Part shown: positions 12,392 to 18,340 of the stretch, piece after piece | Layout: every line of letters starts with the position of its first letter | Numbering within the stretch: position 1 is the first letter of the stretch | NCBI RefSeq assembly: GCF_027925305.1 | Contig: NZ_BSDR01000001.1 | Location: 2,755,001 to 2,819,000 of the forward strand | Source of the DNA: Desulforhabdus amnigena | GTDB taxonomy: Bacteria > Desulfobacterota > Syntrophobacteria > Syntrophobacterales > Syntrophobacteraceae | DNA: 64,000 nucleotides | Reading direction: 5' to 3' | The notes under the pieces: generated by a model | Databases searched by the model: none | What the model was told of the DNA's origin: nothing | What the model saw: only the letters and a program-made list of their open reading frames with translations | Translations under genes and position numbers: made by a program

Positions 12392-15300
12392 ATGGCATAT
12401 GATGTAGGAATTGATGTTGGATCCGTGAGCATCAACTGCATGGTGATTGACGAACACCGGCAGGTGGTCCTGGAAACTCCCTACCTCCGTCATTTCGGCC
12501 TCATCAATGAAGAAACCCTTGGAATCCTCCAGGCTATTTTCCAGGCCCCTTTCCTGAAAGGTATGGACGACATTCGGTCTGTTTCCTTCACAGGCGTCCA
12601 TGGACAAATGCTTGCCGAAATCCTTGAAGCCCCCTACGAAGTCGAATCCATTGCCCAAGTAGCGGGAGTCACTCAGATCCTTCCAGGCGTACGCACCATC
12701 ATCAGTATCGGCGGTCAGGATGCCGCTCTTTTTCAACTGTCTTATGAAGGGGACCTGTGGCGCATCGAAGCTTTCAATATGAACGGCCCATGCGCTTCCG
12801 GAACAGGTTCATTCATCGACCAGCAGGCGGAAAGACTGGCCATGTCGATGTATGGAGCCGACTTCGAGATGAACCAGGAAAAACTGCAGGGCACTCTGGA
12901 CGACTTCATCGCCCTGGGGATGAAGAGCACCTATCCCGCTCCCGTCGCCTGCCGCTGTACCGTTTTCACCAAATCCGACATGATCCATCTGCAGAACAAG
13001 GGTGAAACACTTCCCAACATCATCGCGGGATTGCACTACGGCAATGCGGCCAATTACCTGAGCACCATTGTGGGCAACCGCAAGTTGGCGGAACCCATTG
13101 TCTTTATCGGCGGTATGGCATCGAACCGGCTTCAAGTCCGGGCCTTTCAGCACTATTTTCCCCATCTTCAAGTCCCTCCCTATCATGCTTCCCTGGGAGC
13201 ATTGGGAACCGCTTTACAGACTCAACGGGAAGGCAGGCAGAACCGTGTGGATCTCTCTCGCCTGGAACGCAAGGACAAGTCGGCGAACCTCCTTTTCCCC
13301 CATGCCGACCGGTTGGAGCTGAAAAAGACGCGATTCAATACCGACAACAGCCTTTCCCCCTGGCCATCCCAGGAAAATGGCCCCATTCCCGCATACCTGG
13401 GAGTGGATATCGGTTCCACCTCCACCAAGTATGCGTTGATCGACGATGCCGGAAATATTCTTCACAAATGTTATGTTCCCACGCGAGGAAAACCCATTGA
13501 AGTCACCCAGAGCCTCATTCGAACACTCCTTCAGGAGGTGGGACAAAAGGTCCACGTGATGGCTGTCGCCACCACGGGATCGGGGCGCAATGTAGTGGGA
13601 GATTTTCTCAGCGCGGATCTTATCATAGACGAAATCACCGCCCACGCACGGGGCGCCGTTGCCGTAGACCCGAAAATCGATACGATCTTTGAAATCGGGG
13701 GCCAGGATTCCAAGTACATCAGCATCGAGGATACACATCCCCTCGACTTCGATATGAACAAGGTCTGCGCCGCGGGGACAGGCAGTTTCCTTCACGAACT
13801 GGCCAATAAGATGAAGATCAATATCGTGCAGGAATTTCAGGAAATCGCCCTTTCCTCTTCCCATCCCGTTCATTTGGCGGAACGCTGCACGGTCTTCATG
13901 GAATCCGATCTGGCGGGGTATGCTCAGAAGGGAGCCCGGAGGGAAGACCTCATCGCAGGCCTCTGCTATGCCATCGTCTACAACTACCTCAACCGGGTGG
14001 TGGAAAAGCGGGCTATCGGCGAACGTGTGATGTTTCTCGGCGGACCATCGCTCAACCAGGGAATTGTAGCCGCTTTCGAAAATGTTCTGAACCGTCCGAT
14101 TCTGGTGCCAAAGCACCGCGAAGTCATGGGAGCCTATGGAGCAGCCCTGGAGGTACGTGAAATCTTTCGACAGGGAAAAATCACTCATGCCGCCCACACG
14201 ATGGAAGAACTGGCACACATTCAAGTGGAATTTTCTGAAACCATCTGTCGGGCGGACAAAAAATGCCACAATGAATGCAAGCTGAAGGTTTATAATTTCG
14301 GAGGCCATAAAAGCATTTGGGGGGGGGAATGCGGGCGCTACGAAGTGAGTCGCTACGATGGGCTTCCCGAAAAGAATTTCTTCCTGGATCGGCAGCAGCT
14401 CTTTCAGGAGACATTGGAAAAGAAGACGCTGTTTCCATCGGAAACAGCCAAGAGCCAGACTTCTTCTTCCAGCCCAACAGTTGGGATCCCGCTGGCTTTG
14501 CACGCTCTGGAATGGGGAATTTTCTGGTCGCATCTTTTTGCCGGACTCGGGTGCCGGGTCGTTTTCAGTCCGCGGACCGACACAAAACTGGCATTGAGCG
14601 GCGTTGAAAGCATGACGGCGGAAACCTGTTTTCCCGTGAAGGTATTCCACGGGCACGTGCGTTATCTGATGGAACGGACCGACTACCTTTTTCTGCCCAA
14701 CGTCATCACCATGCCGGCGCCCGAACCCCATGAGAGCGGTTTTTTCTGTCCTCTGGTGGAGAGCTCGCAGTACATGGTAAAGGCTGCCCTGACGATCCCC
14801 GACCACCGTTTGATTCGGCCGACGCTCTACTTGAAAGACGGCCCGCGAAACCTCGTAGAGCCCTTTCTGAAGAGCTTGCCGAAACAGCTCAGCCCCAATC
14901 CATCACATTTGGAACAGATCATAGCCGCGGCGTGGAAGGCTCAAGATGACTTCCGTAAAGAACTGCTTCGCCGTGGCCGGGCATTTATCGAACAGATCCC
15001 GCCGGACGAACCCCTTTGGATCATTACGGGCCGGCCTTACAACCTGCACGATGAAAGATTGAACCTCCAGCTGGGGAGGCATCTCGCCAAGCTAGGGATC
15101 AAAGCCCTGCCCCAGGATTACCTGGATCTGGATTCCGAAGATCTGAAGGATTTTCCCAAAATGTATTGGGGCCTCGGCGCAAAGATCCTGCGGGCGGCCA
15201 AGAAAATCGCCCGTACCCCCAACTGGTATGGCGTACACCTCACCAATTTCAGTTGTGGAGCGGATTCTTTCATCGAACACTTTTATCGGCACATTTTAAA

Positions 15301-15484
15301 GGAAAAACCCGCTCTTATCCTGGAACTGGACGAACACAGCGCGGTAGCGGGAATCCTGACCCGGGTGGAAGCTTACCGGAATGTCGTAAAAAATCTTCAG
15401 GAGCGGTCGAGCACACGCAGCTGCCGTGCGGAAGAAAACCTTTGCGTCCCCAAAACAGGAGGAGATGCGGTATGGAATCTGTAA
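12392..15484 (+). CDS. Two-domain BcrA/BadF-type CoA-dehydratase activase with DUF2229 region
   Basis: A 1030-residue ASKHA-fold ATPase related to activators of 2-hydroxyglutaryl-CoA/lactyl-CoA dehydratases and benzoyl-CoA reductases, which drive low-potential electron transfer through a 4Fe-4S cluster held at a dimer interface. Two activase domains follow one another: VGIDVGSVSINC with CASGTGSFI and CRCTVFTKSDM (about 1-290), then LGVDIGSTSTKYALID with CAAGTGSFLHEL and AERCTVFMESDL (about 330-600). Both keep the cluster cysteines. After a Cys-rich linker (CRADKKCHNECKL, about 620) comes a DUF2229-like domain (SGVESMTAETCFPVKVFHGH). The C-terminal part often fused in homologues is the next gene, whose start overlaps this stop by 13 bases. 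No dehydratase alpha/beta subunits lie nearby, so the protein it activates is unknown. Confidence 0.88.
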   Translation: MAYDVGIDVGSVSINCMVIDEHRQVVLETPYLRHFGLINEETLGILQAIFQAPFLKGMDDIRSVSFTGVHGQMLAEILEAPYEVESIAQVAGVTQILPGVRTIISIGGQDAALFQLSYEGDLWRIEAFNMNGPCASGTGSFIDQQAERLAMSMYGADFEMNQEKLQGTLDDFIALGMKSTYPAPVACRCTVFTKSDMIHLQNKGETLPNIIAGLHYGNAANYLSTIVGNRKLAEPIVFIGGMASNRLQVRAFQHYFPHLQVPPYHASLGALGTALQTQREGRQNRVDLSRLERKDKSANLLFPHADRLELKKTRFNTDNSLSPWPSQENGPIPAYLGVDIGSTSTKYALIDDAGNILHKCYVPTRGKPIEVTQSLIRTLLQEVGQKVHVMAVATTGSGRNVVGDFLSADLIIDEITAHARGAVAVDPKIDTIFEIGGQDSKYISIEDTHPLDFDMNKVCAAGTGSFLHELANKMKINIVQEFQEIALSSSHPVHLAERCTVFMESDLAGYAQKGARREDLIAGLCYAIVYNYLNRVVEKRAIGERVMFLGGPSLNQGIVAAFENVLNRPILVPKHREVMGAYGAALEVREIFRQGKITHAAHTMEELAHIQVEFSETICRADKKCHNECKLKVYNFGGHKSIWGGECGRYEVSRYDGLPEKNFFLDRQQLFQETLEKKTLFPSETAKSQTSSSSPTVGIPLALHALEWGIFWSHLFAGLGCRVVFSPRTDTKLALSGVESMTAETCFPVKVFHGHVRYLMERTDYLFLPNVITMPAPEPHESGFFCPLVESSQYMVKAALTIPDHRLIRPTLYLKDGPRNLVEPFLKSLPKQLSPNPSHLEQIIAAAWKAQDDFRKELLRRGRAFIEQIPPDEPLWIITGRPYNLHDERLNLQLGRHLAKLGIKALPQDYLDLDSEDLKDFPKMYWGLGAKILRAAKKIARTPNWYGVHLTNFSCGADSFIEHFYRHILKEKPALILELDEHSAVAGILTRVEAYRNVVKNLQERSSTRSCRAEENLCVPKTGGDAVWNL

Positions 15485-16851
15485 CCCTCTCACCTGCTCC
15501 CCCATCGTCTTTCCATCGTCTGGATGTCGGAGTAAAACCTTCCGACGTTTCAGGGAAAACCCTCCTGATCCCGGAAATGGCTCCTTTTGGATCGCATTTG
15601 ATCGCGGCATGTTTCCGCGCTATGGGCACAGATGCGGTCGTAATGGAAACCTACAAGGGGGTGAATCTGGGAAGAGAATTCACATCGGGCAAGGAATGTT
15701 TTCCCTGCCAGGTCACTTTGGGCGATATTCTACACCATCTTCGCAAGGAGAAGGAACGCCTCGGGCCCGCCTTCTCCCCAGAACAATATGTTTATTTTCT
15801 CCCCGAAGCCGACGGACCGTGCCGCTTCGGAATGTACAACAAACTGCAGCGTTTGATTCTGGATCGCTTTGAAGAATTCAAGGAGGTCCCCATTGTCTAT
15901 CTGTCTACGGAGGATGCTTATTCCACGGGGAGCATTATGCCGCCCGAACGGGCTTCAGCATTCCGGAGACTCAGTTATGTGGCTATTATCATTGCCGATG
16001 TATTGGACCGGACCGTCTGGAGAGTCCGTCCCTACGAGTGGCGTCCGGGGATGACCGACGAATTCATGAAAAAAGCCCTGGAAGCCATGGTTTCAATGAT
16101 TGAAACGGTGGGAGCTGACCTCAACTTCAAGAAGATGTACCGGATGCTGGAAGATATTGTCGCCACAGCGGCTTCCTTCATCGATCCACATCAACCGAGA
16201 CGCCCCCGCATCGGCATTGTCGGAGAAATTTACCTGCGCAGCCATCCGGATTCCAACCAAAATATCGTGCGACAACTGGAACGCTTCGGTGCGGAAGTGG
16301 TGGACGCATCCATTGGAGAATGGATCAACTTCATTACTTTCGTTCAGGCCAGAAAGCTCCAACGCCAATGGAAACTGGCCCAAAAGATCCGCGACCACAA
16401 AGCGATGCGGCAGATTTCACGCCAATGGCTGGCCAACAGAATAGAGATCCTATACCAGAGCCGACGTCAGAACCAGGTCTATCGGTGTGCTCTGAAACAT
16501 CTGGACATCGAAGCCGACCACACCATTCGCAGTATCGAGCGCCGTCTGGACCGCAACCGCCTCTACAGCTTCGATATCGGAACCGAGGCGGCCCTCAGCA
16601 TCGGGGGGGCTCTGGAATATGTGCATCACGGATTCGATGGGATCGTAAATGTCTTTCCCTTCACCTGTATGCCCAGCACCATTTGTACCGCCGTCTTGAA
16701 ACCCCTGCTGCACAAGATGAAGGTTCCATACATCGATGCGCCTTACGACGGAGGCATTCAGCCCAATCGGGAGGTGGCCCTGCGCACTTTCGCTTATCAA
16801 GCCAGACAGCATCTGGCATCCCGCAAAACGGGACAAACTTTAAGGCATTGA
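15472..16851 (+). CDS. CoA-dehydratase-related protein, partner of the activase (HGD-D-like)
   Basis: A 459-residue protein resembling the C-terminal region of long activase fusions, related to the 2-hydroxyacyl-CoA dehydratase component-D fold. Conserved-looking elements are LLIPEMAPFGSHLIAACFRA, TSGKECFPCQVTLGDIL (Cys pair at about 73 and 76, possible iron-sulfur ligands), FLPEADGPCRFGMYNK, and near the end FTCMPSTICTAVL with further cysteines. AGGAGG at 15457-15462 supports ATG 15472 inside the end of the activase gene (13-base overlap), so the two are translationally coupled. The frame is open upstream to 15166, but that part is the shadow of the activase gene. Its job is presumably to act with the activase on an unidentified CoA substrate or as an electron-transfer ATPase system. 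Confidence 0.8.
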   Translation: MESVTLSPAPPSSFHRLDVGVKPSDVSGKTLLIPEMAPFGSHLIAACFRAMGTDAVVMETYKGVNLGREFTSGKECFPCQVTLGDILHHLRKEKERLGPAFSPEQYVYFLPEADGPCRFGMYNKLQRLILDRFEEFKEVPIVYLSTEDAYSTGSIMPPERASAFRRLSYVAIIIADVLDRTVWRVRPYEWRPGMTDEFMKKALEAMVSMIETVGADLNFKKMYRMLEDIVATAASFIDPHQPRRPRIGIVGEIYLRSHPDSNQNIVRQLERFGAEVVDASIGEWINFITFVQARKLQRQWKLAQKIRDHKAMRQISRQWLANRIEILYQSRRQNQVYRCALKHLDIEADHTIRSIERRLDRNRLYSFDIGTEAALSIGGALEYVHHGFDGIVNVFPFTCMPSTICTAVLKPLLHKMKVPYIDAPYDGGIQPNREVALRTFAYQARQHLASRKTGQTLRH

Positions 16852-16852
16852 A

Positions 16853-18340
16853 ATGAGCCAACAGACCATGATCATCAACGCCGTTCACCCGGAAGAATTC
16901 CGGGTCGCCCTCGTCGAAGGGCAGACCCTGGAAAGTTTCTTCATTGAAACGGCAACCCGCGGCAAAGTCGTGGGGAATATCTATAAAGGAATCATCACAC
17001 ACGTACAACCCAGCTTGCAGGCGGCTTTCGTAAATTACGGAAGAGAACGGAACGGTTTCCTCCCTTTTCCGGAAATTCATCCGGAATATTATGTCAAGGA
17101 ACCCGTGGAACCCGTTCGCATTCAAAACGTCATTCAGCCGGGCCAGGAAGTGCTCGTCCAGGTAGTCAAAGAAGAAATCGGCAACAAGGGGGCGCTGCTC
17201 ACCACTTATATTTCCCTTGCGGGCAGAGATGTGGTGCTGATGCCCGGACAGGCCCAGAGGGGGGTTTCCCGGAAGATCGAAAATGAAACGCAGAGGGACC
17301 GCCTCAAGGAACTGGCCCGTGATCTCAGGATTCCCGAGGAGATGGGAATCATCATTCGCACGGCCGCGGAAAACCGAACCAAACGCGAAGTGGCCAAGGA
17401 CCTCAATCATCTTCTGAGGATCTGGGAGGAAATCAAGAAAATCGTCCAGGAAACCCCTGCCCCCGCGATCATCTATAAAGAACAGGATCTGGCCATACGG
17501 GTCATTCGAGACTACTTCACCCCCAATATCAAATCGATCCTGGTGGATGACCGGGAAGTCTTTCGTCAGGTAAAGGATTTCTTGCGTATCATCAGCCCCA
17601 AGCATCAGCGCCTAGCAAAATTCTACAAGGAAGAAGCTCCCATTTGCAGCAAGTACAACCTGGAAGACCAGATCGAACAGATCTTTCGCAAGAAGGTACC
17701 CCTGAAATCCGGAGGCCATTTGCTCATCGACCCCACCGAGGCTCTTGTGGCCATAGATGTCAACTCGGGTAGAACAAGCAGCGACGGTGCTCTGGAAGAA
17801 ATGGTCTTCAAGGTGAACATGGAGGCGGCCACGGAAATTCCCCGTCAACTGCGCCTGCGGGATCTGGGGGGGTTGATCGTGATCGATTTCATCGACATGC
17901 GCGAAAACCGGCATATGCGCGATGTGGAGCGGCGGCTCAAGGAAGAGATCAAAAAAGACAAGGCCAAAATCACGGTAGGGCGCATTTCGCGCTTTGGACT
18001 ACTGGAACTCTCGCGCCAGCACCTGGGCCTGAACATCCTTCGAGGGTCCTACAGAGAATGCCCTACATGCCAGGGCTCCGGCTTGATACGCTCCCCCGAA
18101 GCAACGGCCCTTTGCTACTTCCGCAAGATCTGGCTGGCCCTCGTGCAGAAAAAGCCGACATCCATCAAAGGGACGTTTGCCATCGACGTGGCCAACTATC
18201 TGCTCAACCAAAAGCGACAGGATCTCATCCATCTGGAAGATCGCTACAAAGCTACCATTACCATTGAAGGATCTTCCTCTCTCTTGCCGCATGAAGGGCA
18301 TCTGGAATTTGTTCTCAAGGAAGCTCCCCCAAGCGCCTGA
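16853..18340 (+). CDS. rng: Ribonuclease E/G family endoribonuclease
   Basis: A 495-residue single-strand endoribonuclease of the RNase G type, acting in rRNA maturation and mRNA decay. The order is an S1-like N-terminal domain (VVGNIYKGIITHVQPSLQAAFVNYG, about 35-60), then the catalytic DNase-I-like part with AIDVNSGRTS and GGLIVIDFIDMRE, which carry the two metal-binding aspartates, and the zinc-link CPTCQGSG (about 402-409). It lacks the long C-terminal degradosome scaffold of RNase E, hence RNase G. ATG 16853 follows the previous stop by one base, suggesting co-transcription with the activase pair. A GGGGAGA/TCTCCCC hairpin at about 18376-18397 follows without a T-tract. Confidence 0.93.
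   Translation: MSQQTMIINAVHPEEFRVALVEGQTLESFFIETATRGKVVGNIYKGIITHVQPSLQAAFVNYGRERNGFLPFPEIHPEYYVKEPVEPVRIQNVIQPGQEVLVQVVKEEIGNKGALLTTYISLAGRDVVLMPGQAQRGVSRKIENETQRDRLKELARDLRIPEEMGIIIRTAAENRTKREVAKDLNHLLRIWEEIKKIVQETPAPAIIYKEQDLAIRVIRDYFTPNIKSILVDDREVFRQVKDFLRIISPKHQRLAKFYKEEAPICSKYNLEDQIEQIFRKKVPLKSGGHLLIDPTEALVAIDVNSGRTSSDGALEEMVFKVNMEAATEIPRQLRLRDLGGLIVIDFIDMRENRHMRDVERRLKEEIKKDKAKITVGRISRFGLLELSRQHLGLNILRGSYRECPTCQGSGLIRSPEATALCYFRKIWLALVQKKPTSIKGTFAIDVANYLLNQKRQDLIHLEDRYKATITIEGSSSLLPHEGHLEFVLKEAPPSA

Follow-up and report, generated by a model that had tools for sequence, protein, structure and literature searches.

Activases are ASKHA dimers with a shared [4Fe-4S] cluster that deliver ATP-driven electrons to the iron-sulfur clusters of two alpha/beta subunits. 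Within a 64,000-nucleotide stretch of the Desulforhabdus amnigena genome (contig NZ_BSDR01000001.1, positions 2,755,001 to 2,819,000; here, the window), a first-pass annotation described a long activase that is divided between two overlapping genes and has no dehydratase nearby. The locus raises two questions: is the division real, and does the activase stand at this locus without a partner?

Anatomy of the two genes

Two open reading frames on the plus strand, at 12392-15484 and 15472-16851, overlap by 13 bases. Two stretches of the first protein match Pfam BcrAD_BadFG (223.9 bits), and it also matches TIGR00241 (268.4 bits) and DUF2229 (PF09989) at residues 696-910 (168.4 bits; cut-off, 29.4); no Pfam family matches the second protein above its cut-off. 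The genome, a single contig of 4.54 Mb, holds one DUF2229 place and one match to the second protein. The features are as follows.

12392..15484, + strand: first gene, a 1030-aa open reading frame starting with ATG and encoding ASKHA-1, ASKHA-2, a four-Cys knuckle, and the DUF2229 module (open reading frame, Pfam, alignment)
12392..13321, + strand: ASKHA-1, about residues 1-310, with Cys134 and Cys189 and with Ala112 in the GGQDxK loop (Pfam, alignment)
13394..14155, + strand: ASKHA-2, about residues 335-588, with Cys459 and Cys499 and the GGQDSK loop kept (Pfam, TIGR00241, structure-chain match)
14228..14347, + strand: four-Cys knuckle, residues about 613-652, with Cys619, 625, 629, and 647 (invariant in 81/81 rows)
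14474..15400, + strand: DUF2229 module, here half A, about residues 695-1003, with invariant Cys746, 786, and 955 (Pfam, predicted structure, profiles)
15401..15484, + strand: unconserved tail or linker of the first gene, including the stop, where the split lies (alignment)
15457..15462, + strand: AGGAGG, a likely ribosome-binding site for translation from the second gene's ATG at 15472, which it precedes by 9 bases (sequence)
15472..16851, + strand: second gene, here half B, 459 aa, with invariant Cys76, 117, and 399 (open reading frame, predicted structure, profiles)
16853..18340, + strand: RNase E/G-family gene, which begins one base beyond the second gene (PF10150, PF20833)

The frames and Pfam matches bear out the first-pass view of two overlapping genes, of which the first holds two ASKHA domains with their cysteines plus DUF2229; the ribosome-binding site and the 13-base overlap that it had pointed to are likewise in place. 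Its description of the second gene as holding a Cys-rich domain is too simple: the product is a 459-aa alpha/beta protein in which three cysteines are invariant. An alignment of 63 split pairs (the window, 61 relatives, and a Fusobacterium pair, L117) with 18 fused proteins contains 14 cysteines that are invariant in 81/81 rows: two per ASKHA domain (C134/C189 and C459/C499), four in the knuckle, and three each in the DUF2229 module and the second protein. This invariance across split and fused forms argues that the anatomy goes beyond chance. With an ASKHA fold and two cysteines in each half, the first protein has the features of an HgdC-type activase.

The same alignment locates the cut. The junction corresponds to an unconserved linker of the fused homologs; it follows the block, around residue 1005, with which conservation in the first protein ends, and it precedes the first strand that is conserved in the second. 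The two cysteines in the tail of the first gene are not conserved (2/63 and 9/63 split rows). A comparison of the junction with the domain boundary in fused homologs, as the first-pass annotation had proposed, thus finds that the two coincide. Taken with the predicted folds given below, this position suggests that the chain is most likely cut between two reductase-like halves, A and B.

The two ASKHA domains differ in one respect. In the GGQDxK loop of ASKHA-1, lysine is absent from all 62 window-type rows (L117 left out) and is kept in 16 of the 18 fused proteins and in L117; the corresponding lysine of ASKHA-2, Lys441 in the window, is kept in 81/81 rows. The loss of the ASKHA-1 loop lysine within the window clade is a new detail, and the ATP sites of the two domains probably differ in this clade.

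Distribution and age of the split

Relatives were found by scanning genome contigs with the second protein, and the best 80 of 174 were kept. Both halves were found in 75 of these 80 nearest relatives, although contig ends truncate some of them, and every one of the 75 is split, which settles whether the relatives share the split, as the first-pass annotation had asked. The remaining five loci, which have no first gene upstream of the second, were left out of this count; at two other loci (L049 and L053), the first gene is itself in pieces. Across the relatives, each of the three possible relative frames occurs, and the spacing of the halves ranges from overlap to about 800 bases. One of the five loci without an upstream first gene, L054, belongs to a metagenome-assembled genome (G325) that has a single close match to the second gene on one contig and a first gene (L210, G325:C193) on another contig of 21 kb, on which no second-gene match was found. 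The halves can be encoded apart, as they are in G325, barring misbinning or misassembly.

DUF2229 is present in 230 of the 297 genomes of the phylum that were surveyed, and many of the best-scoring matches among those listed are encoded in open frames about 1400 aa long, as long as the fused form. In the family, order, and class of the window, 10 further genomes carry intact DUF2229 frames of 1025-1083 aa, which are first-gene lengths and fit the split form. A genome of the same genus, G296, carries a split copy (1035 aa) and, in addition, a fused paralog of 1504 aa from a distant clade (L122, G296:C30). Homologs of the first protein also occur in short, unannotated records labeled as phage (Listeria, Enterococcus, and human faecal; H30-H40), which are possibly host DNA.

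Two quick trees with long branches were built, one of 62 rows and one of 59 rows; in the latter, L197 was entered as a true split pair in place of a wrong-frame ORF labeled as fused, and the long-branch fused rows L128, L133, and L134 were left out. On both, the 33 window-type split rows (the window and 32 sampled relatives) form one clade. Splits occur elsewhere on the tree too, in the Fusobacterium pair and in a pair from G226 and G021. Either tree needs at least three changes between fused and split forms, of which the starred branches force three on the 62-row tree and two on the 59-row tree. The Fusobacterium animalis pair, on plasmid pSB029A, has the same two-gene plan as the window; however, it lies inside the fused clade, its genes are one base apart, and it keeps the ASKHA-1 lysine. 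Its place inside the fused clade argues that it represents a separate split. Very long open reading frames at L169 (7278-11411) and L197 either start far upstream of the second gene or are frame-shifted, and they mislead longest-ORF calling.

By these comparisons of sequence, the split is genuine, old, and conserved, and it is no sequencing frameshift. The existence of so many fused-length frames among the best homologs listed in the phylum survey could suggest that a gene which is normally fused has here been broken by a frameshift from sequencing or assembly, or is decaying as a pseudogene. Nevertheless, neither is to be expected when every relative with both halves is split, in any of three frames and at variable spacing, when the sampled split relatives form one clade with the window, when the halves lie on different contigs in G325, and when the cysteines of both halves are invariant, and we regard this explanation as next to impossible. 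The first-pass claim of a real split, made from the window alone, is therefore upheld by the unanimity of the relatives and the monophyly of those sampled.

The closest known counterparts are fused orphan proteins of about 1400 aa that are annotated as acyl-CoA dehydratase activase or activase-related and contain DUF2229. They have the same domain order and the same 14 invariant cysteines, whereas the window form consists of two genes that part at the linker joining the reductase halves, and the ASKHA-1 lysine that all window-type rows lack is absent from only 2/18 fused rows. In having PF09989 above its cut-off together with BcrAD_BadFG, the first protein belongs to the DUF2229/activase-related family. 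The single chain of about 1400 aa that is common, albeit not universal, in that family is replaced here by two genes, as in the 75 relatives.

Predicted folds and the proposed enzyme

Structure prediction provides insight into the two halves. The model of the second protein, built from a 58-row alignment, has a pLDDT of 88.8 and a pTM of 0.89. In a Foldseek search of the PDB, all 16 matches with an E value of 0.001 or less were chains of HadBC, BzdNO, MbdON, or DCCP. VIA, a realignment of Foldseek's own candidates, gave a Z score of 14.2 to 3o3n_B over 285 residues (rmsd 4.3), and the best row outside the dehydratase, benzoyl-CoA reductase (BCR), and DCCP enzymes scored 7.1. The model of half A (residues 605-1030 of the first protein; 54 rows, pLDDT 83.4, pTM 0.81) also placed a dehydratase chain, 3o3o_A, first in Foldseek, but it was the sole dehydratase-type enzyme in 40 rows at the same threshold, and the other 39 were mostly periplasmic metal-binding proteins and other Rossmann-like folds. 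In VIA, which alone separates the dehydratase enzymes from other folds for this half, the top nine rows were dehydratase, BCR, or DCCP enzymes, with Z scores from 13.5 to 10.7, and the next row scored 8.2. Because Foldseek returned a single dehydratase-type row, the case for the fold of half A leans on VIA and on profile comparisons. Foldseek TM-scores were modest (0.36-0.45 by query length).

When wide alignments that included fused and twin relatives were used, the profiles of A and B matched each other with a probability of 97.6 and a pairwise E value of 3.4e-12, with the three cysteines in register. Against HGD-D, A reached 83.7 and B reached 87.6, over the C-terminal part only, with the last cysteine in register. 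Narrow alignments gave no useful profile match among A, B, and HGD-D. Scanned singly, 32 of 58 members of half B matched DUF2229 at an E value of 0.1 or less (best, 3e-5), and weak matches to HGD-D came from 1/58 B members and 2/54 A members; Pfam HGD-D (PF06050) has no match to either window protein. Three cysteines are invariant in each half (83/83 rows in A and 83/83 in B), and a fourth in half B, C79, is kept in 64/83 rows. This profile evidence shows that A and B are homologous to each other and, more weakly, to HGD-D over its C-terminal part. By prediction, both have the dehydratase/reductase-subunit fold of 2-hydroxyacyl-CoA dehydratases, class I benzoyl-CoA reductases, and the double-cubane protein. 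Of the features of the dehydratase/class I BCR superfamily, the pair has this predicted subunit fold and three cysteines per half, and it falls short of the HGD-D cut-off.

Comparison with characterized systems refines this picture. By prediction, both halves share the fold of HadBC, the 2-hydroxyisocaproyl-CoA dehydratase; they also share its three cysteines per half, and ASKHA-2 matches the HadBC activator (4eht_A; E value, 1.7e-34). In contrast to HadBC, the window activase is tandem, is fused to one reductase half, and carries the extra four-Cys knuckle; moreover, the window halves are only 7-12% identical to dehydratase subunits. DCCP with its ATP-driven partner DCCP-R (7yyl, 6eno) is alike in predicted fold and in having such a partner, but it uses six cysteines for a double cubane, whereas three are conserved per window half. 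The class I benzoyl-CoA reductases BzdNOPQ and MbdONPQ have N and O subunits whose fold is that predicted for the window halves, and they have two ASKHA subunits (9gai_C and D), although in these enzymes all four subunits are separate. As described in PMC11971306, BzdO holds a [4Fe-4S] cluster on three cysteines, and BzdN holds a double cubane on six. By analogy, the three cysteines of each window half are putative ligands of one [4Fe-4S]-type cluster, and their number favors single clusters as in BzdO over the double cubane of BzdN. The same source describes a histidine in BzdO three residues after the second ligand cysteine (His131); chain 2 has no counterpart, with Gly120 at the like position, and so the chemistry may differ from that of BzdO.

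Elsewhere, the parts are arranged in another way. Two genomes, G135 and G302, encode A-B proteins of 755 and 733 aa, free of ASKHA domains, that face a separate, stand-alone activase on the opposite strand (L166 2184-5642 and L167 1008-4303). In the L166 protein (P0003; about 755 aa, from G135, of the window's class), A and B are fused without an ASKHA domain, and it matches both DUF2229 (178.9 bits) and HGD-D (47.1 bits; cut-off, 28.4). The L166 activase ends in a similar four-Cys segment, as read by eye, and G135 carries this twin form, given as 757 aa among the DUF2229 frames, besides its split-length DUF2229 frame. The rearrangement shows the modules to be activase, half A, and half B.

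The statement that no dehydratase lies nearby consequently holds for Pfam HGD-D and fails for predicted fold, by which A and B are dehydratase-like. The idea of an activase without a dehydratase partner is not supported, since the DUF2229 part and the second protein both have predicted dehydratase/reductase-subunit folds, and an activase and its reductase-like partner would thus both be encoded at the locus. One could suppose instead that the first protein activates the HGD-D protein encoded at the one such place found in the genome, about 1 Mb away, and that the second protein is unrelated. That HGD-D protein is of the DCCP type (E value of 1e-144 to 7yyl_C), and its gene adjoins its own single-domain activase; moreover, the second gene follows the first in 75/80 relatives, so we consider such a pairing very unlikely. 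The distant HGD-D and activase genes (L168 4666-6781, C1 at about 3.74 Mb) adjoin putative genes for a [NiFe] hydrogenase and a maturation protease, as judged by eye.

We propose, with good though not full confidence, that the pair encodes a single two-chain enzyme of the "activase plus dehydratase/reductase" kind, one that is oxygen-sensitive and transfers electrons at the expense of ATP. Chain 1 would comprise, in order, the ASKHA pair, the four-Cys knuckle, and reductase half A, and chain 2 would be half B. The tandem ASKHA domains would mimic an activase homodimer, each domain contributing two cysteines to one [4Fe-4S] cluster; in related enzymes, PMC11971306 describes an ASKHA dimer whose shared [4Fe-4S] cluster feeds ATP-driven electrons to the Fe-S clusters of the alpha/beta subunits. 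We infer that A and B pair as HadB/HadC or BzdN/BzdO do, each with one [4Fe-4S]-type cluster on its three cysteines, that ATP hydrolysis on the ASKHA pair would drive low-potential electrons to these clusters, and that a substrate would there be reduced or dehydrated through a radical. The loss of the ASKHA-1 loop lysine in the window clade counts against this proposal, as do the absence of a Pfam HGD-D match, the modest TM-scores, the Foldseek result for half A, and the missing counterpart of the BzdO histidine.

The main rival casts the pair as a reductive activator powered by ATP, or as a machine for handling sulfur or clusters, that acts on another protein or cofactor instead of being an enzyme with its own substrate; A and B would then serve for docking or for sulfur transfer (TudS-like, [4Fe-5S]). 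The count of three conserved cysteines in each half suits single clusters rather than double cubanes, a 4-thiouridine-5'-monophosphate desulfidase is described in PMC11971306 as a relative turned to sulfur transfer, and no catabolic neighbors are constant, the commonest families reaching 4/23 of the mostly fused loci. Against this, the full set of parts for a self-contained electron pump and reductase is present and conserved together. We judge the sulfur-handling alternative unlikely but worth keeping in mind, and we prefer the two-chain electron-transfer enzyme.

The RNase E/G neighbor and the meaning of the pair

The gene that follows the pair in the window is found beside it in most relatives as well, a second new detail. 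By open reading frames, an RNase E/G gene lies downstream on the same strand at 50 of 76 loci (75 relatives and the window), 22 lack it, and four have too little sequence to judge; because these loci are relatives, this is not a count of independent events. With tblastn, one of the 22 (L019) proved to have the gene downstream as well (51/76), and at three loci (L062, L066, and L082) it sits in divergent orientation some 0.5-0.8 kb upstream of the first gene. Over all 80 loci, RNase E/G is found somewhere at 57. The next commonest neighbor family occurs at 15. Among 27 further, mostly fused loci, RNase E/G occurs at two (L170, which is the split copy of G296, and L195, which is fused), and no neighbor of the fused forms is constant, with the most shared families in 4/23 loci. 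Since orientation changed while adjacency was kept, the gene order speaks for some selection on the linkage to RNase E/G, as linkage and nothing further.

As a hint of RNA binding, chain 2 was checked for a helical insert of strongly basic character; none was found, the median net charge being +3 in the 63 split rows and +1 in the 18 fused rows. At its most speculative, the split pair may work together with the RNase E/G gene as an iron-sulfur reductase or desulfidase that is powered by ATP and targets RNA or an RNA-released nucleotide; the ASKHA halves would be specialized (one sensing ATP and one hydrolyzing it), and a free chain 2 could exchange partners. We give this scenario little credence.

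A literature search, with most subscription journals outside its reach, found no functional study of the DUF2229/activase-related family; a table in PMC6952196 has an entry for SMU_0438c. Public annotation of the second gene of the Fusobacterium pair as a 2-hydroxyacyl-CoA dehydratase already hints at the dehydratase fold of the second half. Also, PANTHER names the family a bifunctional dehydratase-plus-activator, which makes the module reading less new.

The locus is a split variant of a widespread uncharacterized family, ordinary as a gene split and useful as a functional reading. No assigned chemistry was found for DUF2229 proteins, yet they occur in 230/297 surveyed genomes of the phylum, and the linkage to RNase E/G is the only widespread genomic clue to the function of the pair found in this analysis. 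Reading the pair as a self-contained electron pump with a two-subunit reductase would tell which chains to copurify and what number of clusters to look for; the split form may offer a ready-made means of separating the two reductase halves.
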